Positions 2,248 through 63,120 of a stretch of 64,000 nucleotides of DNA are shown piece after piece (positions within the stretch are counted from its first letter, which is position 1; every line of letters starts with the position of its first letter). This DNA comes from Lachnospiraceae bacterium. GTDB taxonomy: Bacteria > Bacillota > Clostridia > Lachnospirales > Lachnospiraceae. Location: NCBI GenBank assembly GCA_910575155.1, contig CAJTDX010000001.1:1-64000 (forward strand), read 5' to 3'. Made by a program: the position numbers and the translations under genes. The notes below the pieces were generated by a model, which had not been told where the DNA came from, ran no database searches, and was given only the letters and a program-made list of their open reading frames with translations.

Positions 2248-3165
2248 CTATCTCGGTCCTAAAAACTTATCCCCATTCAAATGTATCATATGCTCCGGCA
2301 TCTCCGCAATCCAGACTTCCGTTTCCCATGCCAAATTTTCTGAAAATCTCTTATAAGTCTTAAAATCAAGAAATGCTGTCACAAAGATTTTCCCTGCCGC
2401 TACACTCTTTGTCATTTCAGTTATTTCCAATATTCTTTTAGCGTCCATCGGACCTACGGAAGTCACTGATTCAATAAAATATATCCAGTCTTTATCTTCT
2501 CTGTACAAAACCACATCCGGCATCTTGTCATGCAAAGTTATTTCAAATCCCAATTCTTTTAACTTATCAACATTCTTTACCAAATCTTTCTCTATGGTAT
2601 CACCAACATACAAACATTCTGAATTGGGCGCAAATCGTGGCGCAAATTCCTCAATAATAGCCTTTTGCAGTTCATTGTGTCTGCCTATAGAAAATTGAAA
2701 ATCTGCTCCATTGATGCGCACCGGCATCATTGTCATTTTCTTTTTTGAAGCATACATGTCTACCAGTTTTTCATGATATTCCAAAAATCGACTTACAGAC
2801 TTTTGCCATTCTGATGTTTGAAATGTCCTTACCATCTGCAATGTTTCTTCTGTAAGCCTGTACCTGTAATTAGGACTGTTTGTGGCTTTTCCATTATCCT
2901 CTACAAGTGCGGCATTGCGAAAATGATGTAATGCCTGTTTACGAAAAGTTTCCCTGCTGTTTTCCGCATAAGTTGATCCATAATATGTATTCGCAAATTG
3001 GATAATATCATGGATACGAATCCACTCATTTCCAGCATCTTTCCATAATGTATCCGGCTTTATCCCTGCCATTGCCAACAGCACATAACAGCAAATATCT
3101 GCCTGCTGCGCTTTAGGCATTCCTAGCATTTTCAGAAGTTCTCTTGCCTCATCAATTTTATCCAC
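2248..3165 (-). CDS. BsuBI/PstI-type restriction endonuclease
   Basis: A 305-residue protein resembling the BsuBI/PstI restriction endonuclease family. The N-terminal half looks like a winged-helix DNA-binding part (WIRIHDIIQFANTYYG). The C-terminal half carries MPDVVLYREDKDWIYFIESV, consistent with a PD-(D/E)xK nuclease core (D...E). Family members cut CTGCAG. It overlaps the end of the methyltransferase gene by 8 bp, so the two are translationally coupled with the methyltransferase first. Specificity is inferred from family only. Confidence 0.85.
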   Translation of the reverse strand: MDKIDEARELLKMLGMPKAQQADICCYVLLAMAGIKPDTLWKDAGNEWIRIHDIIQFANTYYGSTYAENSRETFRKQALHHFRNAALVEDNGKATNSPNYRYRLTEETLQMVRTFQTSEWQKSVSRFLEYHEKLVDMYASKKKMTMMPVRINGADFQFSIGRHNELQKAIIEEFAPRFAPNSECLYVGDTIEKDLVKNVDKLKELGFEITLHDKMPDVVLYREDKDWIYFIESVTSVGPMDAKRILEITEMTKSVAAGKIFVTAFLDFKTYKRFSENLAWETEVWIAEMPEHMIHLNGDKFLGPR

Positions 3166-4645
3166 AGTATCCCTCCAATATCATATTACAGTTATTTTCT
3201 GACATATCATTACTTTTCATTAGTTTCCTGCCCATTTCCTGTATGCTTTCTAAATCAGGCACAGGCATTGCGTTTATTTCTGTTGAATTTACCTGCGTTG
3301 AACCATTTAGTATTCTATAATATTCATCGTAAAGTGTAGAATTAAAAATTACATATAATCCGTACACAAGGCACTCTGACATTTCCGTTATCAATCCATC
3401 TACAAAATTAATCTTGTTCTGTGTACTGATTTTCTTATACTGTGGATACTTCTTTGATAAATATACACCACACTGCAGTCTGCGCCTTTCTTCTTTTGCA
3501 GTAAAACGCTTGACAAACAAATAATTTCGATTATCCTGCATTAGTCCTTTTTGGTCAGTCACAACATACTCATGTTCTTTCTGGATAGGAAACTGCACTT
3601 CTCCTTGTTTGATATGTTGTGAATAAAAAAGCGGAATCGCACCTTCCTCTGCATCATCACGAAGTATCTCACGATTGCGAAAATCAACTGTCAATCCCGT
3701 TTTCATTTTCAGTCCAATATCCGGTAATGTTTTATCAAATCTATGCAATCGTTCCAACACAGAAACTTCTTTTTCATCTGTTACTAAATAAACATAATAA
3801 TCTTCTCCCGAAACCACAAGGCTATATGGCACTGTCAACGAAGTCAGATTATCAAAATCATTATTTGACTGCGAAGAAGAAATTGTAACCTTTTCTGGTG
3901 TTTCATTTGTCTTTTTTACTTTTATTATAATTGTTTCCTGCAAGACATCTTCTTTATCAAACACCTTATTCCTGCTTACGAATAAATGAATATGTTCTAA
4001 CTTCCCTTCTGTCAAAAAATACTGCCTAAACCGCTTAAAATATGCTCCAGAAGTCCATGAACGAGGGATAATATACACCATCTCCCCTTCGCTATCAAGA
4101 TTGAATAATCCCATTGCCGCAAAAATAAAATATAAATTGGGGGCGCCATAACAGACTTCCGGCATAGCCGTTGCTTCTGGCGCATCTTTAGGTATCTTCA
4201 TATATGGAGGATTTCCAATTACAAAATCATATTTCTTTGGTGCGAGATTGCCGCCTAACATATGATTGAAGTCTAAATATTGGCTTGTAATATAATTATC
4301 TGTGATAATGTGAATTTGTATGTCTTTTTTAGAATTTGCCTGGCAAGTATGCAAGTTCTCTTTTAACAATCGCAAAATGTTGTCATCATTTTCATAGCAG
4401 GTTAACTCTATCGTCTGAATAGAATTCATCTGTTCTAATCGTTCTAAAAGCGCACACGCCAATATGCCTGAACCTGCCCCTGCGTCTAAAATGCGAATCT
4501 TGAACAAATTTTCAGGAATAGTATATAGTCCAGCCATAAAACGTGCTGTCTCTTTACTTGTAAAAAACTGACCATATTTTTTACGCTCTTTTTTCGGCAT
4601 ATCATCAATATATCTGTTTGTACGTTCAATAATGCAATCTAACAT
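3158..4645 (-). CDS. Adenine-specific DNA methyltransferase (BsuBI/PstI type)
   Basis: A 495-residue N6-adenine methyltransferase. Motif I is ILDAGAGSGILACALLE near residue 48 (AdoMet binding) and motif IV is VIGNPPYMK near residue 140 (catalytic NPPY). A long C-terminal half would be the target recognition part. It protects host DNA from the endonuclease encoded immediately downstream, with which it overlaps. M.BsuBI and M.PstI methylate the A in CTGCAG. Start at ATG 4645, 18 bp after the retron RT stop, so the R-M pair may share transcripts with the retron. Confidence 0.9.
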   Translation of the reverse strand: MLDCIIERTNRYIDDMPKKERKKYGQFFTSKETARFMAGLYTIPENLFKIRILDAGAGSGILACALLERLEQMNSIQTIELTCYENDDNILRLLKENLHTCQANSKKDIQIHIITDNYITSQYLDFNHMLGGNLAPKKYDFVIGNPPYMKIPKDAPEATAMPEVCYGAPNLYFIFAAMGLFNLDSEGEMVYIIPRSWTSGAYFKRFRQYFLTEGKLEHIHLFVSRNKVFDKEDVLQETIIIKVKKTNETPEKVTISSSQSNNDFDNLTSLTVPYSLVVSGEDYYVYLVTDEKEVSVLERLHRFDKTLPDIGLKMKTGLTVDFRNREILRDDAEEGAIPLFYSQHIKQGEVQFPIQKEHEYVVTDQKGLMQDNRNYLFVKRFTAKEERRRLQCGVYLSKKYPQYKKISTQNKINFVDGLITEMSECLVYGLYVIFNSTLYDEYYRILNGSTQVNSTEINAMPVPDLESIQEMGRKLMKSNDMSENNCNMILEGYCG

Positions 4646-4663: not shown

Positions 4664-5674
4664 TTAATCAAATCCTTGTTCCGTATTAATGCCAACATTA
4701 TGTATGTGCTTAGAAAGATACCTACCTTTTTCCCTTTTAGACCTATAAAATCTGTCTCTTGATAATTTCTTTAGCTCCTGCTCATAGCTATGGACGTACC
4801 TATATATTTCCAGAAAGATATCTGGTTCTATTTGTCTTAGCGAACATAAGGTTCCGTTAAGCTTTTCAATTTGATATATATTACTGCTTTTTTTACATTT
4901 TGCATATAACTCTATTATTTGTTTACGCTTACTATTAAGCACAACCTTTTTCCCTTGCTTTATTCCAACTCCGGTAACCACCTTAAAATCATTTACCTGA
5001 TAGTAATGATCCTTTTTACTTTTTGCCAATAGCCCATTCTTTCTTAATACATCGGAGACCCCATCTCTCAAGATGGCTTTAATCGGAAAATCAGAAGAAA
5101 ATGTCATATCATCTACGTAAAGCGAAAAATAGCAATTATATTCTTCTGCTAATTCATTTATTCTCTGAAACATACCACAGTATGTCCAGTATATAATTAG
5201 TTGGCTAGATGGGCTTCCTGTTGGCAATTTTCCATTATATGTCACTAACTCTGTCATAATCCACGCAATATCAGATGCCATATTAAAAGTTTGTGAAAAC
5301 ATTTGATAGATTCTGCTTCGCTGTGCTGAATCATAAAACTTTGATATATCCATTATTTTCACAAATCTATGTTTTAAATGCACCTCTGCATTTGTAATAT
5401 AGCTACATGATTTTTTACCTGATATTACCCATTCCGGCGTTATAATTCGTTTAAATAATTTACAAATATGTTTTTGTATATCCTTTAAATCTTCTGGTGG
5501 TACAGTAAAATGTCTTTCTCCATCTCCATTGGGCTTCGGTCTTGAAAATTCATTATAACAATAAGTATGTTCTTCCTTAAAATAGTTTTTAGGCAGATTT
5601 AAAAATTCTGCTAGCCTTCTTCTATTCCTCAACCGATACAATGGACTGTTCTCTATTGGATAACATTTATTCAT
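4664..5674 (-). CDS. Retron reverse transcriptase
   Basis: About 336 residues. The palm motif is YVDDMTFSS, preceded by LPTGSPSSQ, and the thumb carries VTGVGI, the VTG motif of retron RTs that reads the msr. An NAxxH motif (NAEVH in SYITNAEVHLKHRF), also diagnostic for retrons, precedes RT domain 3. The enzyme would prime at a branching G of its cognate RNA and make msDNA. I chose ATG 5674, which overlaps the stop of the HTH gene (ATGAATAA), because upstream codons lie within that gene. A candidate msr-msd lies at 6290-6445. Confidence 0.9.
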   Translation of the reverse strand: MNKCYPIENSPLYRLRNRRRLAEFLNLPKNYFKEEHTYCYNEFSRPKPNGDGERHFTVPPEDLKDIQKHICKLFKRIITPEWVISGKKSCSYITNAEVHLKHRFVKIMDISKFYDSAQRSRIYQMFSQTFNMASDIAWIMTELVTYNGKLPTGSPSSQLIIYWTYCGMFQRINELAEEYNCYFSLYVDDMTFSSDFPIKAILRDGVSDVLRKNGLLAKSKKDHYYQVNDFKVVTGVGIKQGKKVVLNSKRKQIIELYAKCKKSSNIYQIEKLNGTLCSLRQIEPDIFLEIYRYVHSYEQELKKLSRDRFYRSKREKGRYLSKHIHNVGINTEQGFD

Positions 5675-5972
5675 CTTCAAACTTACCAACTCTTTCAAGT
5701 ATTTTCAATAATTTCATTCCCGCTAATGCCACTTTCTGTTTTTTATCATTTTGTGCTTCAACATCATTTTCCAAAGCTTCTGCAAATAATAATAATGTTG
5801 ATTTTTTCATTTCAAATACGCTGGCATACTTATCTAATATATCCATTGTCGGCTGTTTTTTATTATTTTCTATTTCCGAAACATAACTTTGAGAAATTCC
5901 AAGTTTCTCAGCTAATTCAGCGGATTTATATCCATTAAAAATTCGTAATAATCTAAGCGCTTCTCCAACCAT
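5667..5972 (-). CDS. XRE-family HTH protein, retron partner
   Basis: About 101 residues with an N-terminal helix-turn-helix (SAELAEKLGISQSYVSEIEN) and a helical C-terminal tail. Start at ATG 5972, with GAAGGG eight bases upstream, is preferred over the in-frame ATG at 5990. It overlaps the RT start, so the two proteins are made together. Some retron classes pair the RT with an HTH protein that acts as effector or antitoxin-like regulator; which applies here is not visible from sequence. Confidence 0.8.
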   Translation of the reverse strand: MVGEALRLLRIFNGYKSAELAEKLGISQSYVSEIENNKKQPTMDILDKYASVFEMKKSTLLLFAEALENDVEAQNDKKQKVALAGMKLLKILERVGKFEDE

Positions 5973-6018
5973 AGATTTTCCCTTCTCCATCTATGCATAA
6001 AAAATAGATTAGTTGGCA

Positions 6019-7468: not shown

Positions 7469-8848
7469 TTATCTGCCCATTCCATACGCTCTGCTCTGCT
7501 GTTTTTCACTCTGTGCGATTCGTTCCAATTCCCTTGCATTTGTCACAATAATATCAATTTTGTCTACCCCGACATATTGTTTCACACGCTCAAAATCATC
7601 CGCTTTTTCCTGCAACTGTTCTAATTTTACATACTGCTGATGTACCTTACTTTTATAGAAATCAATATCCTCTGCCTGTTTTGTGACTTTTGCCTTTAAC
7701 TGCTTAATCTGATCCATGAGGTTGACACATTTTATCGTAAGGCTTTTTACAATTTCTTTCAGCCTTTCCACAAGCGGCATAGCGTTCTTTTCCCGATAAG
7801 TCTTTGCGCTCATTAGTGCAGTTGGCTCCGGCAACTGCCATCTTGCATCTTCATCATAGACATATATGTTACGTTCCAACGCTACTTTAGAATCAGCCAT
7901 TTTCTCAATATCCTGCTGTAACTTTTTCTGATGCTGTTCCAATGCTTTATTATCAGACATCAGCTTTTCTCTGTTCTCTATCAATCCATCCGCCTGTTCC
8001 CTTAATAAATCATTGGTTGCGGAAAGCTCTGTTGTTTCTTGCCGGACAGCTTCATTCTCATGCTTTATCTTCTCCATTTCATTTTCAGCCAAGACTTGCT
8101 GATAAATAATGTGGGATAATTCCGCTTTATTACTGGATACCGCCTTTTCCAAATTTACGACTTCTTTCGCTCTCTCCTGTTTCTCAAAATCTAATACAGA
8201 TAAATGCTTATTGTGCGTTCCCATCTGTTTCCACCGTACCCCATATCTTTCCGCAACTTTTGAAAGTTCCTGCTTTTCTGATTCTATCCATTGATTCCAC
8301 TCCGTTGCGCTTCTTGTGCCGCCTTTAAACCCCTGCTCTGCCAGCGCACCTTTCAGTGATACTCTCGTATCAAGTCCACGGTTGCTGTTACGGATAAATG
8401 GAACAAAATCAATATGAACGTGCGGTGTTTCCTCATCCATATGCAGATGCGCCGAGAACACATATAGATTCGGATTTCTTTTCTGAAAATCTTCCATAAA
8501 TTCTATCAGTATATTTTTTGCAAGCTGCCCTTCTTCACTTTTGGCGTTCGTATCATCCTTATTTCCAATCTGAAGAATAACCTCGTGAAATAATTTCTCT
8601 TGCTTGCTCTGCCTTATCTTCTCATAATAATTGTCAATTTTCCGGTCACTCCGTTTCTGCTTTGCATTGTAACGCTCCAGCGCATCATCAAATAATTCGT
8701 GATATACCTTTTTAATATCTAAATGGCAGAACTCCATATTATATTTGCTCCGTTCCTTATCCACATTCTTTGCGCTGAAAGTCCTCGTATTATGGCTGAC
8801 AGAACCTTTTCCCATCATGCCGCTAATTGTCCTCTCCAATAATTTCAC
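7469..8848 (-). CDS. MobV-family relaxase (Mob/Pre)
   Basis: Up to 459 residues. The signature HLHMDEETPHVHIDFVP near residue 135 is the metal-binding histidine motif of MobV relaxases, and the N-terminus has the family's SVSHNTRTF region. The C-terminal half (~200-459) is a long coiled coil. The enzyme nicks oriT and starts transfer using a helper conjugation system. The start is uncertain: GTG 8848, a TTG seven bases downstream, or tandem ATGs near 8815-8818. Confidence 0.9.
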   Translation of the reverse strand: MKLLERTISGMMGKGSVSHNTRTFSAKNVDKERSKYNMEFCHLDIKKVYHELFDDALERYNAKQKRSDRKIDNYYEKIRQSKQEKLFHEVILQIGNKDDTNAKSEEGQLAKNILIEFMEDFQKRNPNLYVFSAHLHMDEETPHVHIDFVPFIRNSNRGLDTRVSLKGALAEQGFKGGTRSATEWNQWIESEKQELSKVAERYGVRWKQMGTHNKHLSVLDFEKQERAKEVVNLEKAVSSNKAELSHIIYQQVLAENEMEKIKHENEAVRQETTELSATNDLLREQADGLIENREKLMSDNKALEQHQKKLQQDIEKMADSKVALERNIYVYDEDARWQLPEPTALMSAKTYREKNAMPLVERLKEIVKSLTIKCVNLMDQIKQLKAKVTKQAEDIDFYKSKVHQQYVKLEQLQEKADDFERVKQYVGVDKIDIIVTNARELERIAQSEKQQSRAYGMGR

Positions 8849-14909: not shown

Positions 14910-17024
14910 CTATGCTTTTGCAGAAATAACTTTTTCCTGAACAGACTTTGGAACCTGCTCATATTTCTCAAAAAACATGGAATAATTTCCACGTCCCTGC
15001 GTCTTGGAACGAAGGTCGGTAGAATAGCCGAACATCTCTGCAAGAGGTACAAATGCACGTACAATTTTTCCTCCGCCAAGGTCGTCCATTCCTTCGATCC
15101 GTCCGCGGCGGGAATTGATATCACCGATTACGTCTCCCATATACTCTTCCGGCATGGTGACTTCAACCTTCATAATCGGCTCTAACAGCACCGGAGTCGC
15201 CTTCTTCATTGCTTCCTTAAATGCCATGGAACCTGCAATGTGGAACGCCATTTCGGAAGAATCGACTTCATGGTAAGAACCATCGTATACCGTAGCGTGT
15301 ACGCCCACAACCGGGAATCCTGCAAGGATACCGGCTTTGGTAGCTTCCTCAATACCTTCGCCTACAGCCGGAATGTATTCCTTGGGAATTGCACCGCCCA
15401 CAACTTCTGAATCAAATTTAAATAATTCTTCTCCATTGGCGTCCATAGGCTCAAAACGAACCTTACAATGTCCGTACTGTCCGCGTCCGCCAGACTGTTT
15501 TGCATATTTGTATTCCTGATCAATCGGTTTGGTAAATGTCTCTTTGTACGCTACCTGAGGAGCTCCGACATTTGCTTCCACCTTAAACTCGCGAAGCAGA
15601 CGGTCAACAATAATCTCCAGATGCAGCTCGCCCATACCTGCGATAATCGTCTGTCCGGTCTCTGCATTGGTATGTGCGCGGAACGTCGGGTCTTCTTCTG
15701 CAAGTTTTGCAAGCGCTTCACCCATCTTGCCCTGTCCTGCTTTGGTCTTCGGCTCAATGGCAAGCTCGATTACCGGTTCCGGGAATTCCATGGATTCCAG
15801 GATTACCGGGTGCTGCTCGTCGCAAATGGTATCGCCGGTACTGGTAAACTTGAAACCAACTGCCGCCGCAATATCTCCGGAATAAACTTTGTCAAGCTCC
15901 GCTCTCTTATTGGCATGCATCTGCAGGATACGTCCCACACGTTCTTTTTTGCTTTTGGTAGCGTTCAGTACATAAGAACCGGAATTCATTGTACCGGAAT
16001 ATACACGGAAGAATGCCAGTTTTCCAACGAAGGGATCTGTCATAATCTTAAATGCCAGCGCTGAGAACGGCTCGTCGTCAGAAGAATGTCTCTCCGTCTC
16101 ATTTCCGTCAAGATCCACGCCTTTAATTGCGGGGATATCCGTAGGAGCCGGCATATAATCAAGGATTGCATCCAACAACTTCTGAACTCCCTTGTTGCGG
16201 TAAGCAGAACCGCAGCACACCGGAACCGCCGTACATTCACAGGTTCCTTTTCTCAGGGCTGCTTTCAGCGCTTCCACAGAAGGCTCTTTGTCCTCCAGGA
16301 ATTCCATCATCAGATCATCATCTAATTCACAGACTTTTTCTACTAATTCAGAACGATACAATTCTGCATCATCCTTCATATCATCCGGAATATCGGTAAT
16401 GGAAATGTCGTCGCCCTTATCATCATTGTAGATATAAGCTTTCATTTCCAGCAAATCAATAATTCCTTTAAAATCATCTTCTTTGCCGATCGGCAATTGC
16501 AGAATAATAGCGTTTTTACCCAAACGTGTTTTTATCTGATCTACGGCTCCGTAGAAATTTGCTCCCAAAATGTCCATCTTATTGATAAATGCCATTCTGG
16601 GTACGTTATAGGTGTCAGCCTGACGCCATACATTTTCAGACTGAGGCTCCACTCCACCCTTTGCACAGAAGACGCCTACCGCGCCGTCCAGCACACGGAG
16701 CGAACGCTCAACCTCAACAGTAAAGTCAACGTGTCCCGGAGTATCAATAATATTGATACGATGCTCCAAGGCGTCAGCCTTAGGCTTGCAGTTCTCCTGC
16801 TCTGTCCAGTGACAGGTTGTAGCGGCTGAAGTAATCGTGATACCTCTTTCCTGCTCCTGCTCCATCCAGTCCATGGTAGCAGTACCTTCATGAGTATCAC
16901 CAATTTTATAATTAACACCGGTATAATAAAGAATACGCTCAGTCAATGTGGTTTTACCAGCATCAATATGAGCCATAATACCAATGTTTCTGGTTCTCTC
17001 TAATGGATATTCTCTTCCAGCCAA
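14910..17024 (-). CDS. fusA: Elongation factor G
   Basis: 704 residues, the usual length. It opens with [15 protein letters not shown] (G1), then DTPGHVDF (G3) and NKMD (G4), with domains II-V intact to the end. It drives ribosomal translocation. It lies between rpsG and tuf as in most bacteria. Start ATG 17024 has AGGAGG upstream. Confidence 0.98.
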
Positions 17025-20846: not shown

Positions 20847-21095
20847 TCACCATTCCAGCGACGTCAGCCATGCGTTCACCTGCACTTCACGTCTTTTTTC
20901 ATCCTGCTGCCGGTACTCTGGCAGCGATAATTCTCCAGCAATTGATCCATCCTCAAGATACAGCAGCCTGTCAGCTCTCAAAGCCGCTTTCAGATCATGC
21001 GTTACCATCAGAATGCTCTGCCCGTTCCTGTTCAGATCTGTAAGCAGATTCAGCACCTCTATGGAATTTTGCCGGTTCAAAGCGCCCGTCGGCAC
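20847..21095 (-). pseudogene. ABC transporter ATPase, C-terminal stub cut by prophage
   Basis: About 82 residues beginning at PTGALNRQNSIEVLNLL, the part just after Walker B of an ABC ATPase, and including the switch histidine region SILMVTHDLKAAL. Walker A, the signature motif and Walker B are missing; just upstream the sequence turns into prophage DNA. The missing N-terminal part is expected beyond the other prophage end, outside the window. Confidence 0.85.
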
Positions 21096-26984: not shown

Positions 26985-27412
26985 TCGTCTTCTTCCTCCC
27001 TTTCCACAAGAAAATCATTCTTTTCACAACGGCGCATATATACATTGCTTACATACTTGTAAGCCATATCTACACGCCCGTTTTCCAGCTTGTTTGCTTT
27101 TATGTACTCTTCATAGTCGCTATGTGTTTCAAAGAAATTGTCAAATTCTTCTTTCGTGTGCTTCCTGCGGTTCATACATTCATTTGCAAAGGTCAAGATT
27201 TCATGCCGCCAGCTCTCCACCTTGTGCTGCTGCAAGTCCTTTTCTATCTTGTCAAGCTGTCCTTTTATATCATGATTCATCAATGCCCCTATGCGCTTTA
27301 TGATATACCGCACGGGCTGAAATTTAATGCCAGGGGTCAGGTCAATTATTATCCCTGCCGCCGCAAGCCACGCCAGAATCTCTTTCGCTGTCTGCAATAG
27401 CTCCTGTGACAT
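26981..27412 (-). CDS. Small phage protein with one membrane segment
   Basis: About 143 residues; a hydrophobic segment (ILAWLAAAGIIIDL) near the N-terminus and a charged helical remainder. ATG 27412 has GGAGG eight to nine bases upstream and lies inside the 3' end of the DGR reverse transcriptase gene. Possibly a holin or spanin-like accessory; not recognised. Confidence 0.6.
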   Translation of the reverse strand: MSQELLQTAKEILAWLAAAGIIIDLTPGIKFQPVRYIIKRIGALMNHDIKGQLDKIEKDLQQHKVESWRHEILTFANECMNRRKHTKEEFDNFFETHSDYEEYIKANKLENGRVDMAYKYVSNVYMRRCEKNDFLVEREEEDE

Positions 27413-28493
27413 TTCCGCATACCTCCTTTTTATACATTTCATTCAAACTTTTTCGCAGTCCGTAGCTTTCAAAATGTTTTAATATTCCCCGGTATGAAGC
27501 AACGCTTCTGTCAAGCGTGTCTTTGTCAATTTCACCTATTTTGTAGGCATGGAACATATATTGCAGCCGTCTTTTCAGCTTCTTTGCAGTCTTCTTCCTT
27601 AACTTCCTATGTGTCGCCCACACCCGGAAGCCTACAAACTCAATGCCCATACTTGTCGGGCGTATGCAGGTTTTCTTGTTTAACTGCAAATTCAGCTTCT
27701 TTCCCAGAAATACGGCTATGTCCTGTTTTACCTTCTCCAGATACTTTTTATCATCATGCAAAATTATAATGTCGTCCATGTATCGGATATAGAAGTGCAA
27801 CCTTAATTTGTGCTTGCAGAACTGGTCAAGCTCATTCAGATACAGGTTTGCGAACATTTGAGAAGTCAGGTTTCCTATAGGCAAGCCCACATCATCTAAC
27901 ATTCTGTCAAATGCAACGTCCCCTATATCTGCGCCCAACGGCAATCCGAACTTTGTATCTTCGCAGTCAATGATTTTCGCCATAAGGTCTAAAAGCGGCG
28001 GGTCGTCAATCATCTTTGCAAGAATCTTCTTCAAAATGCCGTGGTCTATCCTGTAGAAATACTTTGATACATCTAATTTCAGATAGTAGTATTTCTTCGG
28101 CTTCCTGTCGGTCTGCTTTAACCAATATTGCAGGCGGTCTATTGCCTTGTGCGTCCCCTTCCCTACCCTGCAAGCGTAACTGTCGAAAATGAACTTCTTT
28201 TCAAAAATCGGGTTCACCTGCCTGTATATTGCGTGCTGCGCCACCCGGTCTTTGAATAACAGTGACATTATCAGGCGTTTTTTCGGTTCGTACACATAGA
28301 AAATATTGTACCTTCCGACGCTGTATTGTCCCCATATCAATTCATTTTGCAGGATAATCAGGTTATCTTCCAGCCTGTCCGTATACTCCATAACGTCCTG
28401 TCTGTATCTTTTGCACTTGATAGCCGCTTTGTATGCACAAAACAGGTTTTCAAAGTCATAGATTTTCGGGAAAATTCCCCGTATCTTCTTCAA
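27342..28493 (-). CDS. DGR reverse transcriptase
   Basis: 383 residues. The catalytic YMDD (IRYMDDIIIL) is present, and the motif LPIGNLTSQMFANLYLN carries the SQ typical of DGR RTs in place of the QG of group II intron RTs. There is no maturase or endonuclease domain. With Avd it copies the template RNA, misreading adenines, and the product replaces the variable repeat. TTG start at 28493 follows AGGAGG at nine bases. It is the last gene of the DGR cassette. Confidence 0.95.
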   Translation of the reverse strand: MKKIRGIFPKIYDFENLFCAYKAAIKCKRYRQDVMEYTDRLEDNLIILQNELIWGQYSVGRYNIFYVYEPKKRLIMSLLFKDRVAQHAIYRQVNPIFEKKFIFDSYACRVGKGTHKAIDRLQYWLKQTDRKPKKYYYLKLDVSKYFYRIDHGILKKILAKMIDDPPLLDLMAKIIDCEDTKFGLPLGADIGDVAFDRMLDDVGLPIGNLTSQMFANLYLNELDQFCKHKLRLHFYIRYMDDIIILHDDKKYLEKVKQDIAVFLGKKLNLQLNKKTCIRPTSMGIEFVGFRVWATHRKLRKKTAKKLKRRLQYMFHAYKIGEIDKDTLDRSVASYRGILKHFESYGLRKSLNEMYKKEVCGNVTGAIADSERDSGVACGGRDNN

Positions 28494-28597
28494 TGGTTTT
28501 TACCTCCTGCAATCAAAAATGTGTCGGGCAAATTTACTCCGGTCCACCACTCCGTTTCAAACGTGATATATTCATTCAGCCTTTCGGCTGACTTTCG

Positions 28598-28633
28598 CCC
28601 TGTAAGACAAAATCCTGATTCTGTCTTACAGGG
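28598..28633. repeat. 12-bp inverted repeat in TR-RT spacer
   Basis: CCCTGTAAGACA (28598-28609) pairs perfectly with TGTCTTACAGGG (28622-28633) around a 12-nt loop. It is in the spacer between template repeat and RT gene, a part of DGR RNA known in the Bordetella phage system to be needed for cDNA priming. It may be part of that RNA. Confidence 0.55.
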
Positions 28634-28774
28634 TTACTAACTATCTTCCCGACAATTCAATCTTCTTCCTACGGTCCCCGGTTCCCCGGTCGCCTTTGGA
28701 ACGGAAAAGAACCCCTTTTAACCCTGTACGCACGGGACACGCTCACTTGTGAACGTGACTTCTGGCTGTAGAGG

Positions 28775-28887
28775 AAAAGCGGAACGGAAGGACACATTGT
28801 TGTTGACGTTAGAACGGGCGTTGTTCAAGTTCAACGCCGCCACTCCACCGTTGGAAGTGTTGTTGAAGCTCGAACCCCGGATAGGCA
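28775..28887 (-). repeat. DGR template repeat (TR)
   Basis: 113 bp aligned without gaps to the 3' end of the variable gene at 29440-29552 (offset 665). There are 11 mismatches, all at TR adenines on the minus strand (24 adenines present, none of the other 89 bases changed). Read in the target frame, TR would give Asn (AAC) or Ile (ATC) at all seven variable residues. It lies between avd and the RT gene, outside any gene; 28494-28940 otherwise holds only the hairpin at 28598-28633. Confidence 0.95.
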
Positions 28888-28940
28888 CGGCAAGTCCTCT
28901 ATAACGGTTCTTTCCCGATATGAAAAAAGCGGTTTCCCGC

Positions 28941-29351
28941 TCATTTCTTTAATGATTTATAATAGCCGCCAATCATGCAGCCTATTTCATTTATCTTGCG
29001 TGAAATATTCTCATACTTCCGCAAGGGCAGGCAGGGTTTCCGGCTCCTTGTATACTGCGGGTCAGCCGCAAGCCTTACAAGGTGGCGTAATACGTCAACT
29101 TCGTTGTCAAGTTCTCCCAGCGTCGTCTTCTTGTAGTGCTTATTTTCCAGTGTCACGACAAGCCGCAAAATTTGAAGCATTGTTTCCCGTATCTCTTCCG
29201 CAAGTCTTCTTTGCGCCCGTGGAAACTGTTCAAGCTCTGGTCCCGTGTATAGTATCAGCTCATAGACTTTATTTTTCGTCTTGAAGTCGTCTGCCGTCGC
29301 ATTGTCCCGTACCGGGTCAAGCTCCGGCAGTCCCTTTTCTTCTCCTGCCAT
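28941..29351 (-). CDS. DGR accessory variability determinant (Avd)
   Basis: 136 residues, helical and basic, with the four-helix-bundle pattern of Avd proteins (RRLAEEIRETMLQILRLVVT, LRHLVRLAADPQYT, INEIGCMIGGYYKSLKK). In Bordetella phage Avd forms a pentamer that binds the RT and template RNA. It is between the variable gene and TR, the normal place. Start ATG 29351. Confidence 0.9.
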   Translation of the reverse strand: MAGEEKGLPELDPVRDNATADDFKTKNKVYELILYTGPELEQFPRAQRRLAEEIRETMLQILRLVVTLENKHYKKTTLGELDNEVDVLRHLVRLAADPQYTRSRKPCLPLRKYENISRKINEIGCMIGGYYKSLKK

Positions 29352-29381
29352 ATTTCACCCGCCTTGTCTGTTTTGATAGAA

Positions 29382-29403
29382 AGGGCTTGCTGTCGCAAGC
29401 CCT
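29382..29403 (-). repeat. Hairpin/cruciform downstream of VR
   Basis: A 9-bp stem AGGGCTTGC/GCAAGCCCT with loop GACA on the coding strand, 36 bp after the variable repeat. DGR targets characteristically carry such a GC-rich stem with a GRNA tetraloop just past VR, needed for efficient homing. It could also act as a terminator. Confidence 0.85.
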
Positions 29404-29430
29404 CCCAGTGTATCAGTTATCAGTTTACAG

Positions 29431-30489
29431 TTATTCATAAAAAGCGGAACGGAAGGACACATTGAAGTTGACGAGAGAACGGGCGAGGTTCAAGGACAAC
29501 GCCGCCACTCCACCGTCGGAAGTGTTGTAGAAGCTCGAACCCCGGAGAGGCAGTCTTTCGCCGTTCGTCCTTGCCCAGTACCCGCCCGGTGAAGTCATGC
29601 CCGCTTCCGGGAAAAGTCCTGCTGCAATCAGAATTTTCGGTATTGTAACGCCCGTTACCGCTTCAACGCTCTTGAAATACTGGTTTCTCAAATAACTGTT
29701 TCCTTCGTCTGTCGTCGCAACTGTAACGCTTGTATTTATCCGGGGGCTGCTTGTCTGGCTTGTTCCGTCAATTTTCAATGTCCCTACGGTTCCCGGTTCA
29801 ACCAGCGTTCCGTCCGGCTTAATCGCTTTCCATTCGGTACTACTTACCCCCATACTGCAATCAGATTTCATTGCGTTTCCGTAAGGAATAATCTGTATTT
29901 CACCGTTTACCAGCCGCATACCTGACACCCATTCCCAACAATTCCCGCAAAGGTCAGCAATGCCCGCTGCGCTGTGGTCATGGTTCCATGTTACGGGTCC
30001 GCTTCCTGTCGCCGTCCTGCCGCCGCCGTGTGAACCGTCGATATATGTATTTACGCCCCGTTCCCACGCCTTTTCATAGCTTGCGTCCCAGTTCGTGTTC
30101 CCTCTCGGAATCGTTTTATTTTTTTCACACCATAACACAAGGGCGGCAAAAACGCCGTTCTGTAATAAGTGCCAGCCCTCCCCTTTGTTCCGGCTGAACC
30201 GTAAAGCGTCGTCAAAATTCACATACGCTTTCGGGTCCTTCATAGGCAGGGAATAGGCTCTGTCATTCACGACACAATTCAGGTACTTTGATACCCAAAT
30301 CACATTCTTTTCCACTCCTTCGACAACCCACCACGGCAAGGTTTCCTGTGTGCCGCCTGCAATAATATCAGAATACTTCATCTTCGGAACGCCTACCATG
30401 ATAGACGGCTTTCCTAAATCGTCAAGAATGACTTTGTTATGTCCTCCAAAAGACGCAACCGCAAGGGCTAAATCATCAAAATTTCCCAT
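29431..30489 (-). CDS. DGR variable protein, FGE/C-type-lectin fold, tail tip
   Basis: About 352 residues. The C-terminal ~200 residues have a formylglycine-generating-enzyme-like C-type lectin fold (GIADLCGNCWEWVSG), as in other DGR targets, and end in the variable repeat with residues L, Y, D, S, L, L and F where TR encodes I or N. A conserved scaffold (RGSSF, GGVAAL, FRSAF) surrounds them. Directly after the tail fibre genes, so most likely a receptor-binding protein. ATG 30489 follows GGGAGG; an upstream in-frame ATG lacks this. Confidence 0.93.
   Translation of the reverse strand: MGNFDDLALAVASFGGHNKVILDDLGKPSIMVGVPKMKYSDIIAGGTQETLPWWVVEGVEKNVIWVSKYLNCVVNDRAYSLPMKDPKAYVNFDDALRFSRNKGEGWHLLQNGVFAALVLWCEKNKTIPRGNTNWDASYEKAWERGVNTYIDGSHGGGRTATGSGPVTWNHDHSAAGIADLCGNCWEWVSGMRLVNGEIQIIPYGNAMKSDCSMGVSSTEWKAIKPDGTLVEPGTVGTLKIDGTSQTSSPRINTSVTVATTDEGNSYLRNQYFKSVEAVTGVTIPKILIAAGLFPEAGMTSPGGYWARTNGERLPLRGSSFYNTSDGGVAALSLNLARSLVNFNVSFRSAFYE
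29440..29552 (-). repeat. DGR variable repeat (VR)
   Basis: 3' end of the variable gene, 113 bp matching TR. The final 25 bp before the stop are identical to TR and would hold the initiation-of-mutagenic-homing sequence. Changed codons: AAC to TTC, CTC (twice), TCC, GAC, TAC, and ATC to CTC. Confidence 0.95.
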
Positions 30490-30491
30490 CT

Positions 30492-30830
30492 TTATACCTC
30501 CCATAAAATAATTGTGCAAAGTGTAACATCAAAGTCAATCGGAATCGGCACTTCCCGTGGTTCTTCGTTTTCGTCCACCCCGTCTTCAATCACATCATAG
30601 CGGCGGGCGGGAATGATAATTTGCGCTGCGTACTTCTGCGCCCTGCCGCCCGTCCCGATAACAATTCCGTTTTCGCTGTCAATGCAAATGTCCAGCGACA
30701 CTTCAAAATCTCTTTCCCGGCTTGCCAGATTTACAGAAAGTTCATCATCACCGAAAATAATCTTCTTGCCCTTCACTTCATACTGGATATGATTGCCGGG
30801 CATTTTTTCAACAACCTTGATTTTTGCCAT
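30492..30830 (-). CDS. Hypothetical tail-associated protein
   Basis: 112 residues, beta-rich (IQYEVKGKKIIFGDDELSVN). Immediately upstream of the variable protein gene, with which it may act in the tail tip. No recognised family. Confidence 0.6.
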   Translation of the reverse strand: MAKIKVVEKMPGNHIQYEVKGKKIIFGDDELSVNLASRERDFEVSLDICIDSENGIVIGTGGRAQKYAAQIIIPARRYDVIEDGVDENEEPREVPIPIDFDVTLCTIILWEV

Positions 30831-30831
30831 C

Positions 30832-30996
30832 TTATCTTCCTCCTTCTTTTACAACTTCACGGGTCCTTGCGGCTATGATTTCCGCTGCTTCCCGTTGTTC
30901 CGGGGTTCCTCTCCCCTTTACTCCAAAAGATTGCAGCACATACGCTTCATGCTGCTTTCTTTCTTCGCTCCTGATAATCACATTTGCGCCCTTCAT
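30832..30996 (-). CDS. Small tail-region protein
   Basis: 54 residues from ATG 30996, which overlaps the TGA of the previous gene (TGATG), to TAA 30832. Charged and helical (RSEERKQHEAYVLQSFG). The overlap at one end and the two-base spacing to the next ATG at the other argue for a real gene, though no function is apparent. Confidence 0.6.
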   Translation of the reverse strand: MKGANVIIRSEERKQHEAYVLQSFGVKGRGTPEQREAAEIIAARTREVVKEGGR

Positions 30997-31493
30997 CAGT
31001 AGAAGCCCCCCTTCACAAACACTTTCAGTTTGACTTCCTTTGCGCTTCCTGTATGCGCAATCTTGAAGCCGTTCGCCAGCTTCTCCGTTACTTCAATATC
31101 CCCGACGCAACCGCCGCTGTATTCCAGCACTTCCGCTGTCACGGTATAGTCTAAATGGTTTCTTTCTGTTTTCAGCGCAACGGTCTTCACGGAATCATTG
31201 AAGGGGTACTGCTGCCCGTTTGTCATGGTCAGAAGAATTGTTTCCCCGGTTTCATCTGCCGCCCGCTGGTTCATGTGAATTGTTTCCGTCGCCAGAAGTG
31301 CCGCAAGCTCCCCGGCGTTCGTTATGCCGTCTTCCATGTGGTTGAAGTTCGTTGCGCTCTGCGGGGTCCCCTGCTGCAATACCTCCCCTTCCACGGCTTC
31401 ATGCGTGATTGTCCCGTCGTCGTTTTCAATCTCTCTGTAACGGTTTTCATGCTCTGTAACATGGTCCTGCCACTGCTGCCATTCGTATGCCAT
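30996..31493 (-). CDS. Tail fibre-like protein
   Basis: 165 residues starting MAYEWQQWQDHVTEHENRY. The N-terminus resembles phage tail proteins that begin with a short helical anchor and a 'TPQSATNFNHMEDGI' segment common in clostridial phage fibres. In the run of fibre genes between tail protein I and the variable protein. Confidence 0.65.
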   Translation of the reverse strand: MAYEWQQWQDHVTEHENRYREIENDDGTITHEAVEGEVLQQGTPQSATNFNHMEDGITNAGELAALLATETIHMNQRAADETGETILLTMTNGQQYPFNDSVKTVALKTERNHLDYTVTAEVLEYSGGCVGDIEVTEKLANGFKIAHTGSAKEVKLKVFVKGGFY

Positions 31494-36978: not shown

Positions 36979-39900
36979 GCCTTGACCGCCTTTCATCATC
37001 ATTTCTTTTGTCCAGAAGGTCTTCTACCTCCTGCAACAAGTTTCTATTGTTTTCCTCCAGCTTCTCTTCCAAGTCGCCCGCTTTGTCGCCATCAACGTAT
37101 ATTGTCGGATTGCTGTTGATTGTTACGCTATTCCCGCCGCCCGTTCCTGCGCCGCTCACTACTTCTGGCGGCTTTACTTCCGGCGCATTGTTCGTGGTAT
37201 TGTAGAATACCTGTGAAGCCGTCTGCCCGGCTCCTGCCGCCTGCGCCACCTGTCCGGCTGCGTTCTGTGCGCTGAATATGTCTTTTGTCTGTTGCGCCGT
37301 GTATACCGTCATTCCTGGCGCATTTGTTATCAGCTCTGGACCCTCTTCACCTGCAATGAATGTGTCCGGCGTGTTCTTTGTTCCTTTTGCAAAGGTCGGA
37401 AGTGTCGGAATGTTTATGCCCTTCCCTCCTACTCCCGGAACCCAGTCTGGAATCTTAATGCTGTTCAGTGCTGAAATAGCTCCGTTGATAACGCCTATAA
37501 TTCCATTGATAACGCCCGTTGCTATGGACTTTAGCCCGTCCCACGCTCCTTGAAATACCGACTTCACGCCCTCCCAAGCTGCGCCCCAGTTCCCGGTGAA
37601 AACTCCCGTGATAAACTGTATCAGCCCTTGAAAAATCTGCGTTGCCGCCTGCACCACACTTCCAATCGTTGTGAATACTGTTTGAAATACAAAAAGCACC
37701 TGCGGCAAAACCGCCTGTACCGTTGTAAGAATCTGTGTCAAAATCGGCTGTATGATAGTCCATATTGTCTGGAAGACGGTCTGCACTACAGGCAAGACTG
37801 CTGAAAGAACCGTTGTTATTATGGTCCCTAGCTGCTGTATGCCCTGCACAATGAACGGAAGTACCGTTGATACGATAAAGTTAAAAACTTCGCTGATAAT
37901 CGGTAAAACATACGTTTGAATGAATGTTATAACTTCGCTGATAATCGGCATAATGCCCGCAATAAAACTTCCTATGACCGGGATAATGCCGCCTATGAAG
38001 TCCGCTATTGCCTGAAAAATCTGCATTACCACCGGGGCTGCTGACTGTATGCCGCTGATAATTCCCGGAATGACCGTTGTAATCAGCACATTCAAAAACT
38101 GTTCGACAACCGGGACTATATGCGTTGTCACAAACCCTACAAACTCCCCTGCTGCCGCTACAACTTTCTGGAAAACGCCTGCAAAGGTATCAAATACCGC
38201 AACGCCCTTTTCCCCGAAAATCTCTTGTATCTTGTCCCTTGCCGCACCCAGATTTCCGTCTGAAAAAACGCCCTTGATTGTTTCGCCTACGCTTGTTACT
38301 ACTGCAACAATTTTGTCGAATATCTCAAGCCCCTTTTCTCCGAAAATATTTCCTACTGCTTCCCGGACTTTATCAAAGTTCTTCCGTAATAGCTGTACTG
38401 CCGTAATAACCGCAGTTACCACGCCTACTACGGGCAAAATCTTTCCTGCAATCCCTCCTAACGGTCCCAGAAGCGTCGAACCAATTTTTCCCAACGGTCC
38501 TAACGCCTTTTTTATGATGTTTCCTACCGGGGCAATGAATGACCCGATTTTTCCAAAACTGGAAGCAACCACCCTTCCGATTGACCCAAGCGGGGAACGT
38601 GCGACAATGCCGCCTATTCCTGACAGTGCCTTTCCAAGTATGCCGCCGATACCGCTAAACGGTTTTGTGATGAATCCGACAACTTTTGAACCTATGCTGG
38701 AAAGCCCGATTGCCTTTATCTTGAAAAGCTCCAGAACTCTCTGTGCGTCCTTTATCCCGCTTGCTATGTTCAGGAACCCCAGTTTTGCGGTCAGCCCTGC
38801 AATTCTCATTCCTGCAAGTGCCGCCGCTACTTTTAGGACTGTTTGAACCAGCTTCGGGTTCGCCTGCGCAAATTCTGAAACTTTTATCACGACCGCAGCC
38901 ACCTTGTCTGCAAGGTTCCCGACAATCGGCAGAAGGTTTTGACCCAGAACAATACCTAAATTTGCGATACTGTTCTTTGCCTTTTGCATTTTCGCTTCCG
39001 TGGTGTTTTCCATTTTCGCAAACGCTTCTTCCGTTGCGCCTGCGCTCTCAACCATTCCTTTTACAGATTCGTTGAATCCGTCCACACCGTTCGACAAAAG
39101 GGAAACTGCCGCTTTTCCTGCTTCTGCGGACCCGAACACATCAGACAGGCTTTTCCCGCTGCTTTCTGCCGCTTCCTGCATTATTCCCAGAACGTCGCCC
39201 AGGCTCTTCCCGTCTGCCATCAATTCCTTGAAGCTCTTCCCCGCTGTCTGCCGCAAAAGTTTGTCTGCTGTAGTCCCGGACTTTCCAAGCTCATTCAGCA
39301 TACTATTCATGTAAGTTGTGGTTTCTGCTGCCGCAATACCTTTGCTGGTCATGATTGCATAACCAGCCCCAAGCTGCTCTAATGCCACCCCGTTTGCGTT
39401 TGCTGTCGGTATGATTTTACCCATAACGCTTGACAGTTCGCCCACGGTCACTTTACCTTTATTTTGTATCTGAATAAGCATATCCGACACGTCGCCTACT
39501 TTTGACGCTTCCATTCCGTAAGCGTTTAGAATCGTCGTCAGAACGTCCAGCGTCTGCGAACTTTCCGCAAATCCCGCTTTTGCAAGTTTAGCTGAATTGC
39601 TAACAAAGTTTACTGCGTCCCCAGTCTTCTGCCCCGCTGAAATTGCATTGTAAACATCATCTGCAATAGCTTCGGCAGCAATCCCCGTCGTGTTTGACAG
39701 CTTCATGATTTCACTTGAAAGCTGTTCAAGCGGCACTTGCTTTGTGTCTGCAATCGTCCCGACTTTCGCCATAGCGGTTTCGTATTTCTGCGCCGCCTGT
39801 ACGGGTCCGGCGTATATCGCCGCCGCAACTGCGCCAACCGCCCCTATCGTTCCCATTAGCTGTGTCTTTGTAGCTGCTATATTCTCTTTTATTTTTGCCT

Positions 39901-61435: not shown

Positions 61436-61903
61436 TCACCTTCTTTCTGTCTTACATTTAATGTCCGGCACGTCTTCCCCTCTGTAATACTGCCAGGACT
61501 GCGGCGGTCTTTTCAGCCCGTACAGGCTTAATTTGTGCGGCGTGTCGTATTCCTTCGCCTGTGACACTGACCAGCCCCACAAGGGCTTCCCGCTTTCTCC
61601 TGCGTACTCTTTCAACTGCTGCCCGGTCAGGCAGCTTGCCCCCGGAACATCTACTTCCAGCAATCCCGCCCGGCTCTTTACTTCCGGGATAGTCCGTATT
61701 TTGAAAAAGCTATTGCAGATAAATTCCCCTTTTATTTCCCCTGTCCCTGTCACATACACAAGAACCCTGAACGGACCCTTCCCGGCAGGACGTGTCTTCC
61801 TGATTTCAAGCTGCTTTTCTCCCGCCAGAATCTTCTTCCACCAGCGGTCATGCAAAGACAATATGATTGTGTCCGATTCGGACAACCTCTGCTTTTCAGC
61901 CAT
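61436..61903 (-). CDS. ASCH-like domain protein
   Basis: About 155 residues. IILSLHDRWWKKILAGEKQL followed by EIRKTRP is the start of an ASCH/PUA-like RNA-binding domain. ATG 61903 overlaps the end of the C5-methyltransferase frame by eight bases. Function unknown. Confidence 0.7.
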   Translation of the reverse strand: MAEKQRLSESDTIILSLHDRWWKKILAGEKQLEIRKTRPAGKGPFRVLVYVTGTGEIKGEFICNSFFKIRTIPEVKSRAGLLEVDVPGASCLTGQQLKEYAGESGKPLWGWSVSQAKEYDTPHKLSLYGLKRPPQSWQYYRGEDVPDIKCKTERR

Positions 61904-63120
61904 CTTTCCTTTCCTCCTGTTCTGCGGCAATTATTCCCCGGAAGACACGTTCTGCACACGGTACAGCAATACTGTTTCCCAGTGCTTTTATCCGTGCATT
62001 GCTTGACATTTCCTTTCCGCTTGCCCCGTACTGCGTCCAGTTATCCGGGAATCCGTCAAGCCGTTCACATTCTAACGGGGTCAGGGAACGGACCCTGTAT
62101 TTCTGCCGCCAGCTCTCTTCCGGGGCTGCCACGGCGTGTCTGTCGCTCTCTGTCAGCGTCGGGGAAATATCCTGCCCCACTCCCGTCTGATTGCCGCCGC
62201 TCCCCGCTTTCCTTCCCAGTACATTCCCGATAATCGTATATACGGGAAGAAGATAGTACCCCGTCTTTGCCGCCCCGCCGCCTGCCCGCCCCATCAGCGT
62301 CACGCTTTGTTTTGCGTCAATATATATCCTGTCGCCGGTCCGTCCAAAATCTAACTTTGTATGCTTCTTTTCTTCTCCCTCTTCAAAGTTCAGCTTCAAC
62401 TGTCCGTCTGCGCCTTGTGCCAGTCCTCCGCTATTACCTCCAGAAGCGCAATCCGCAGTTTGTCCGGCATATCCCGTTTCATATCCTCTGCCCTCTGCAA
62501 CATAGCCCAACACACTTTCGCACTCAAAAAGTATTTGTCCGGCACGGTCTGTTCTAAAATCTCTGACAAGATAGATTCGTTTTCGACGCTGGGGAACGCC
62601 CCAGTATTGAGCGTCCAACATTCTCCAAGCTGTACTTCCCCCCCCTGCTTCTAACCATTCCGGCATTTGCCCATCTTCCGCTTGCAGGCATTGGAATTGC
62701 GGTCTTTGTGATTTCTTCAAGCACCTTTTGAAAGTCCCTGCCTTTATTGCTTGAAAAAGCCCCTGCCACGTTCTCCCAGACTGCGTATTTTGGGTACTTT
62801 CCATTTGTCGCACACCTCATTTCATCAATAATTCTGACCGCTTCAAAAAACAGTCTTGATTCTGACCCGGCAAGCCCTTTCCCGTTCCCTGCTACACTCA
62901 AATTCTGACAGGGGGAACCAAAAGAAATAATGTCAACGGGCGGTATCTCTGCGCCGTTTATTTCCATGATGTTCCCTAACTGCTGCATATCCGGGAAATG
63001 TTTTGCGCTTATGTCTATGCAGTCCGCTTCAATTTCGCTTCCCCATACAGGCGTTATGCCCTGCCGCTTCGCCGCAAGCGGAAAGCCTGCTATCCCGTCA
63101 AATAAGCTCCCTAACGTCAT
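61896..63120 (-). pseudogene. C5-cytosine methyltransferase, frame broken at G8 tract
   Basis: The N-terminal part (63120 to about 62640) has motif I (GSLFDGIAGFPLA), catalytic SFGSPCQNLS and motif VI WENVAGAF. The rest (about 62640 to 61896) has motif VIII QRRKRIYLV and motif X ALGNSIAVP in another frame. The break is at eight G's (plus strand C 62638-62645); seven G's would join the frames into a protein of about 408 residues through SRGGSTAWRMLDAQYWG. Phase variation, true decay or a sequencing error are all possible. Confidence 0.8.

Follow-up and report, generated by a model that had tools for sequence, protein, structure and literature searches.

A retroelement with one template and two targets

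The stretch examined here (the window) comprises the first 64,000 nt of contig CAJTDX010000001.1 from a Lachnospiraceae bacterium (assembly GCA_910575155.1) and holds most of a prophage; features beyond its end are given as contig positions. On the minus strand lies a diversity-generating retroelement (DGR), for which a preliminary description gave the standard order of variable gene, avd, template and reverse transcriptase (RT) gene. The positions found agree: the target gene T1 (29431-30489) is followed by avd (28941-29351), the template repeat TR (28775-28887, with 24 adenines), a spacer (28494-28774) and the RT gene (27342-28493). The variable repeat VR1 (29440-29552, minus), identified by repeat search, by its likeness to TR and in relatives, lies inside T1, and between 26000 and 32000 the TR/VR1 pair of 113 nt is the sole family of direct repeats of at least 30 nt. 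Compared base by base over 113 bp, the two differ at 11 positions, all of them among the 24 template adenines, while 0/89 other positions are changed, for which random placement gives a chance of 4e-9. In the frame of the target, TR reads PIRGSSFNNTSNGGVAALNLNNARSNVNNNVSFRSAF; VR1 alters seven residues of T1 (325, 331, 335, 342, 345, 349 and 352), each N or I in TR. Repeat search and script returned the same repeat coordinates, length, mismatches and all-adenine placement as had been reported before, and the script likewise seven varied residues.

The same template appears to serve a second gene. When the genome was searched with TR, three copies were found; the third, VR2 (contig 65449-65561, minus), lies 36.7 kb away in gene T2 (contig 65401-66438, minus, 345 aa), beyond the end of the window on the same contig. 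VR2 departs from TR at 14 adenines and, in addition, at the last base, and includes a silent GGA to GGG change, which fits mutation at any adenine and not selection at chosen codons. One contig carries TR, VR1 and VR2 in each of G000, G396, G397, G398 and G401, with 35.7-39.4 kb between TR and VR2. The complete DGR in a contractile-tail prophage that had been proposed thus passed all the sequence tests made here, but the proposal was incomplete, because the template also serves this second target in the non-structural region, which had been missed. In our reading the locus is one complete DGR, carried by a temperate phage with a contractile tail, in which a single template supplies two targets; we put the probability of this at about 0.87.

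Related phages repeat the pattern. A comparison of VRs among related genomes had been suggested as a check, and in three near-identical phages with identical TR (L016, L017 and L019) the VR1s show 12, 12 and 13 departures from TR, every one at an adenine. Across eight phages, the window's included, 93/194 template adenines are changed in VR1 and 95/194 in VR2, and 1/694 other positions in each VR, at position 111 of one phage. These totals, summed by hand, cover positions 1-111, with 112-113 left out as boundary; the eight comprise six genomes or records and two contig pairs (2563367166 and 3300019370, one genome or sample each). Ten groups had been computed; G399 was dropped because its T2 belongs to another TR than the one found in it (30 non-adenine differences), and G057, discussed below, was also left out. 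Where a phage's TR has non-adenine variants (L021/L058), its VR2 moreover has them too, and is therefore rewritten from that TR and not simply inherited; by this evidence both VR1 and VR2 are rewritten. A special G bias of VR2 (11/14) was considered and dropped, G being the commonest substitution in both VRs across the set (62/120 in VR1 and 66/110 in VR2, totals that include the G057 and G399 rows).

The protein and RNA components are those of a DGR. The RT (383 aa) matches phrog_1423 (E 4.5e-133) and RVT_1 (E 1.2e-21) and contains IGNLTSQ and YMDD, which we take to be motifs of the DGR and RT groups; it is less than 60% identical to all 149 matching records among the public phage records searched. 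Avd (136 aa) matches PF22296 (bAvd, E 7.3e-20) and phrog_3206 ("Avd protein of DGR", E 1.2e-28). For the spacer between TR and RT, a common fold is predicted across six phages, one of them nearly identical in sequence to the window's, and 12/66 predicted pairs are preserved by changes on both sides in at least one sequence; against Rfam, nothing in 27000-31000, the spacer RNA included, reached the gathering score. The putative structured, Sp-like RNA is as expected for the spacer that recruits RT-Avd in Bordetella phage BPP-1 (PMC12875486). With its RT, adenine pattern of TR and VR, C-type-lectin target, Avd, GRNA-loop hairpin (see below) and predicted spacer RNA, the element is, by all its parts, a genuine and complete DGR of known kind. 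A motif CAGAA, often GCCAGAAG, stands 3′ of TR at 28759-28766 (minus strand); counted by eye, 9/14 DGRs (the window's and 13 further TR flanks) have CAGAA no more than 60 nt past TR. It might conceivably pair with the CTG array described below.

The prophage and the two target proteins

The prophage occupies 21093-64000 of the window and continues to about contig 70383, giving roughly 49.3 kb (21093-70383). Its inferred ends were placed from an ATP-binding cassette (ABC) transporter ATPase gene, split into contig 70384-70908 and 20847-21092, and from an att-like sequence; the longest exact repeat shared by the two end regions searched is 12 bp. The fragment at 20847-21092 adjoins an FtsX-type permease and contains a motif that is presumably the H-loop. 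Families matched include the tail sheath (phrog_23), which bears out the contractile tail reported earlier, tape measure, baseplate, terminase, portal, major head protein, endolysin and holin, and a large serine integrase (phrog_95) lies at contig 68987-70363; sheath, baseplate, packaging, lysis and integrase genes, as expected of a contractile-tail temperate phage, were thus all found.

T1, of C-type-lectin/FGE type, has 352 aa from its ATG, which is the right edge (30489) of the element as previously drawn; the open reading frame (ORF) reaches a TTG at 30519. It matches phrog_2889 and is a full-length homologue of TaqVP, the target of a Thermus aquaticus prophage DGR from a different host (5VF4, PMC6328139), the match (E 8.9e-61) spanning residues 16-360 of the ORF read from TTG and having no gaps across VR. 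TaqVP has nine solvent-exposed variable residues (PMC6328139). Mapped by hand from this alignment, all nine have counterparts in T1, at 325, 329, 332, 335, 342, 345, 349, 351 and 353; the TR form of the codon contains adenine in 9/9, and five are among the seven residues changed here. The C-type-lectin type given to the target in the preliminary description therefore holds by sequence homology to 5VF4, and the Pfam FGE-sulfatase matches of T1 and T2 lie below cut-off. Against the assignment it must be said that structure prediction gave unusable models (mean pLDDT, the predicted local distance difference test score, 30.5 for T1 and 39.3 for a T2 homologue), so that the 5VF4 homology was used in place of a fold search. 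T1 lies just after the baseplate genes and is probably the receptor-binding tip of the tail; this position and the homology to TaqVP suggest that it would act in host recognition.

T2 is related to T1 (307 aligned profile columns, probability 100) and to 5VF4 (E 3.4e-28, the VR part matching weakly); a PADLOC search with T2 returned no family. It lies among small genes flanked by a divergently encoded helix-turn-helix (HTH) repressor on one side and by Rep on the other; methyltransferase genes stand further off. Among 10 related loci, some of them cut by contig ends and with the matches of one small out-of-frame ORF set aside, Rep is downstream in 10/10, and a repressor-like match is present in 9, a serine integrase in 7 and a methyltransferase match in 9. 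Our best guess for T2 is another binding protein, one that does not belong to the tail and is produced early in the lytic cycle. A serious competitor, to which we give somewhat less than an even chance, is that T2 is a further adhesin of the virion with its gene outside the tail module, as opposed to a protein inside or on the surface of the infected cell: T2 is homologous to T1, it has a weak match to the tail family phrog_5302 (E 8.6e-6), and no signal peptide was seen on inspection by eye alone. What speaks for the non-tail protein is the place of the gene, between repressor and replication genes and away from the structural genes; in a more distant phage lineage it adjoins methyltransferases, again at a distance from structural genes.

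The remote second target is a new instance of an arrangement noted recently: in four species of gut prophage, one DGR has a second VR far from its RT and beside a DNA methyltransferase gene, and arms-race roles have been suggested for such VRs (PMC12629997). A C5 DNA methyltransferase at 61896-63120 (minus) is itself encoded in two overlapping frames, corresponding to the N- and C-terminal parts of PF00145; tblastn matches to it in L057 are likewise in two pieces. A related genome (G057:C88:125-2424) has a tandem pair of T2-like genes, and the reading frame of one of them is interrupted.

Sequence marks at the recipient sites

Both VRs, and not TR, are followed by the same two elements. After VR1 come four ACTG motifs spaced 7, 7 and 8 nt (29406-29431, minus), identified by flank comparison and by blind scans with controls, and then a hairpin (29382-29403, minus) of the form AGGGCTTGC GACA GCAAGCCCT with a 9-bp stem. 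The latter matches the element described for phage DGR targets, a hairpin or cruciform with a GRNA loop and a stem of 7-10 bp (PMC3240598). Flank comparison places the corresponding array after VR2 at contig 65413-65438 (minus), where a further CTG stands 8 before the four, so that it reads 8,7,7,8; the hairpin there (contig 65393-65408, minus) has a GACA loop and a stem of 6 bp, below the published range. In relatives a perfect stem of at least 6 bp follows 11/12 VR1 and 10/13 T2-type VRs and 0/3 of the TRs listed. The T2 array lies within coding sequence (DWKLVTEIL and variants), with a codon choice that is fixed at the DNA level: the Thr of the tail is ACT in 14/14, against 21/203 elsewhere in T2 genes, and Leu is CTG in 14/14 at both sites, against 110/289, in a sample of related and hence not independent sequences. 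Chains of at least three CTG in phase follow VR in 11/15 other DGRs, with fewer in BPP-1, VP58.5 and two Bacillota, and no TR flank of 14 has a chain above one. Some VRs in this comparison had their end assigned by hand, where the conserved end of VR lies, and the 15 exclude Vibrio ZX4290 and ACA1 (chains of 1 and 0), which were counted in a more distant set.

Viral contigs were scanned blind for the array and for control patterns, yielding 108 stretches with the ACTG array, 104 with a TCTG array, 22 with ACTG in the order 8,7,7 and 48 with the reversed motif (106/108, 104/104, 22/22 and 48/48 of which entered the counts). Three signs were scored, namely an RT at most 3 kb downstream, a GRNA hairpin (one mismatch allowed) and a VR-like end. 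Among distinct arrays, that is, those different over 110 nt, although many are still related by descent, an RT or GRNA hairpin was present at 55/84 ACTG, 42/95 TCTG, 6/22 of the 8,7,7 and 0/33 of the reversed-motif arrays; 54/84 ACTG arrays also follow a VR-like end and 26/84 have none of the three signs. A hairpin was present at only 10/95 TCTG arrays, and the 8,7,7 arrays linked to DGRs may be parts of longer ones picked up in a different register.

ACTG arrays with a VR-like end and hairpin include 22 with no RT within 3 kb in the available stretch, 12 of which extend 3 kb or more further downstream, and some of which (L165, L198, L203, L213, L215) lie in phages with 32 to 47% T2 identity. 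L198, L213 and its near copy L214 adjoin methyltransferase genes; L203 and L217 have a weak methyltransferase match alone, 6-7 kb off, and L165, L170 and L215 gave no match to any neighbour gene tested. The lectin-type genes of L165, L213 and L215, and of their near copies or relatives L170, L198, L203, L214 and L217, are candidate remote targets; the stretches of L198, L203 and L217 have less than 3 kb downstream. Of 16 hairpin-bearing arrays with no nearby RT among the 80 listed stretches of the scan, all 13 inspected end a lectin-type ORF, and the other three lie in contigs with T2 genes already known. Three of the 13 (L196, L201 and L232) are T1-like genes lying where a contig or stretch stops, so their RT may simply be cut off. 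Where loci were instead anchored on Avd (30), a believable repeat pair was found in 8 besides the window's own and none in 18; the weak pairs of L101, L102 and L109 were judged spurious.

The array is not described in the DGR literature searched, nor in the text of the hairpin section of PMC3240598 as available, and is possibly new. We propose that a phased CTG array about 10 bases before the GRNA hairpin loop marks the targets of the large class of DGRs that is common in phages of Bacillota, that array and hairpin together form a recipient address by which one template may serve several genes genome-wide, and that a search for this address would reveal remote targets missed by RT-anchored surveys; we hold the chances of this proposal to be even. 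The array would then be a recognition element; its reader might be RT-Avd or a host factor, or it might be read in single-stranded form. Avd is a pentamer, and a repeated site would be attractive in this light.

Several observations on these marks weigh against our reading of the locus. The perfect stem is missing after 3/13 T2-type and 1/12 VR1 sites of relatives, one relative's VR1 hairpin has the loop GGCC and not GRNA, and of the two chains of four CTG in the window, one follows VR1 and the other, at 37250-37272 (plus), has no DGR context. In 13 more distant phage DGRs, the set that includes ZX4290 and ACA1, no chain of three was found in 12/12 with a repeat pair, some showing looser YTG repeats; the array, absent or weak in these and in BPP-1, is therefore no universal DGR requirement. 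It is possible, if on balance unlikely, that the array is an inherited spacer or terminator sequence and no recognition element. Some DGRs lack it, a 4-bp spacer swap in BPP-1 retained activity (Guo 2011, PMC3240598), and the 8,7,7 control also turned up at DGR ends in 6/22, so that exact phase may matter less. Inheritance does not readily account, however, for a motif and spacing that persist while the intervening letters and hairpin stems differ between lineages, for the absence of the array after TR, for synonymous sites that are fixed where it is coding, or for a blind search that reaches DGR ends while its reversed-motif control reaches 0/33.

Activity, known relatives and significance

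Comparison of sequences is the sole basis on which the DGR would be considered active in the lysogen at present, a point that weighs against our reading, and the element might be a fossil whose VR differences are old and whose RT or template no longer works. We consider this improbable. Decay does occur in this host, since a deletion has removed the middle of the VR in another DGR cassette of the same genome (C51), and a second target can decay as well: in G057, where VR1 differs from TR by 8 adenine and 2 non-adenine changes, the T2 VR has 7 adenine and 6 non-adenine changes (four at the 5′ edge), one array motif is broken and no perfect hairpin remains, which likewise speaks against a lasting second target. 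In the window's phage, however, RT, Avd and both targets are open, and among the phages that share an identical TR, VR1 and VR2 differ at adenines alone, the rest of the VR showing no drift. That VR2 arose in a single duplication of VR1 or TR, T2 being no live target, is very improbable: T1 and T2 are homologous over most of their length, and hence duplicated or of shared origin in the past, but the changes in VR2 differ from those in VR1, TR's non-adenine letters are kept (edge aside) in each of eight phages, and T2 has its own array and hairpin, with tail codons fixed at the DNA level.

The same genome holds a second DGR (G000 C36, L015), with a TR/VR pair at 7907-8014 and 8704-8811, an RT of 399 aa and mostly adenine changes; the cassette on C51 (L014:14881-14941 and 15631-15737) is closely related to it.

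For the two-target DGR the following course may be pictured by analogy with BPP-1. A transcript of TR and the structured spacer would be copied by RT-Avd, with random bases placed opposite template adenines; the mutated cDNA would replace VR1 at the 3′ end of T1, and also VR2 at the 3′ end of T2, the T1 homologue 36.7 kb away. Recipient sites would be marked by the conserved VR 3′ end, followed by the CTG array (7,7,8) and the GRNA-loop hairpin. The components, the adenine-only change, the concerted change of VR1 and VR2 with their own TR and the conserved marks can be read from the sequences themselves; RT-dependent mutagenic homing would follow the BPP-1 model, as the homology of parts suggests.

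The DGR of BPP-1 (mtd/avd/TR/brt, NC_005357) agrees with that of the window in gene order, adenine-only change, Avd and a GRNA hairpin after VR. It differs in its Brt (36.5% identical to the window's RT over 92% of the query), in having one annotated VR against two here, and in a hairpin that starts about 20 nt past the VR end used, with no CTG chain of three or more. The Faecalibacterium prophages Lelie, Lagaffe_CP and CP11 are likewise temperate gut phages with two VRs per DGR (PMC11792537); FP_Lagaffe has a three-CTG array after VR, but its RT is 49.4% identical. Multiple VRs are common, being reported for 271/948 DGRs (PMC6642488).

Elsewhere in the window, adjoining PADLOC matches to RT_VI and HTH_VI (4664-5990, minus) form a candidate type VI retron. 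Beside it lie a restriction-modification pair resembling BsuBI/PstI (2248-4645) and, at 739-2190, a gene for bSEFIR; genes for Mob and for an integrase of phage type are near this region.

Retrohoming of the mutated cDNA into VR has been called incompletely understood (PMC12875486), and a short, testable address on near and remote targets that is absent after TR would, if true, be a partial answer to that question. Targets without an RT are undetectable by the approach of Roux et al., according to those authors (PMC8144416); if the array is such an address, target searches independent of RT become possible. Finally, where a phage varies a non-structural protein together with one of its tail region, one may ask what the former has to bind.

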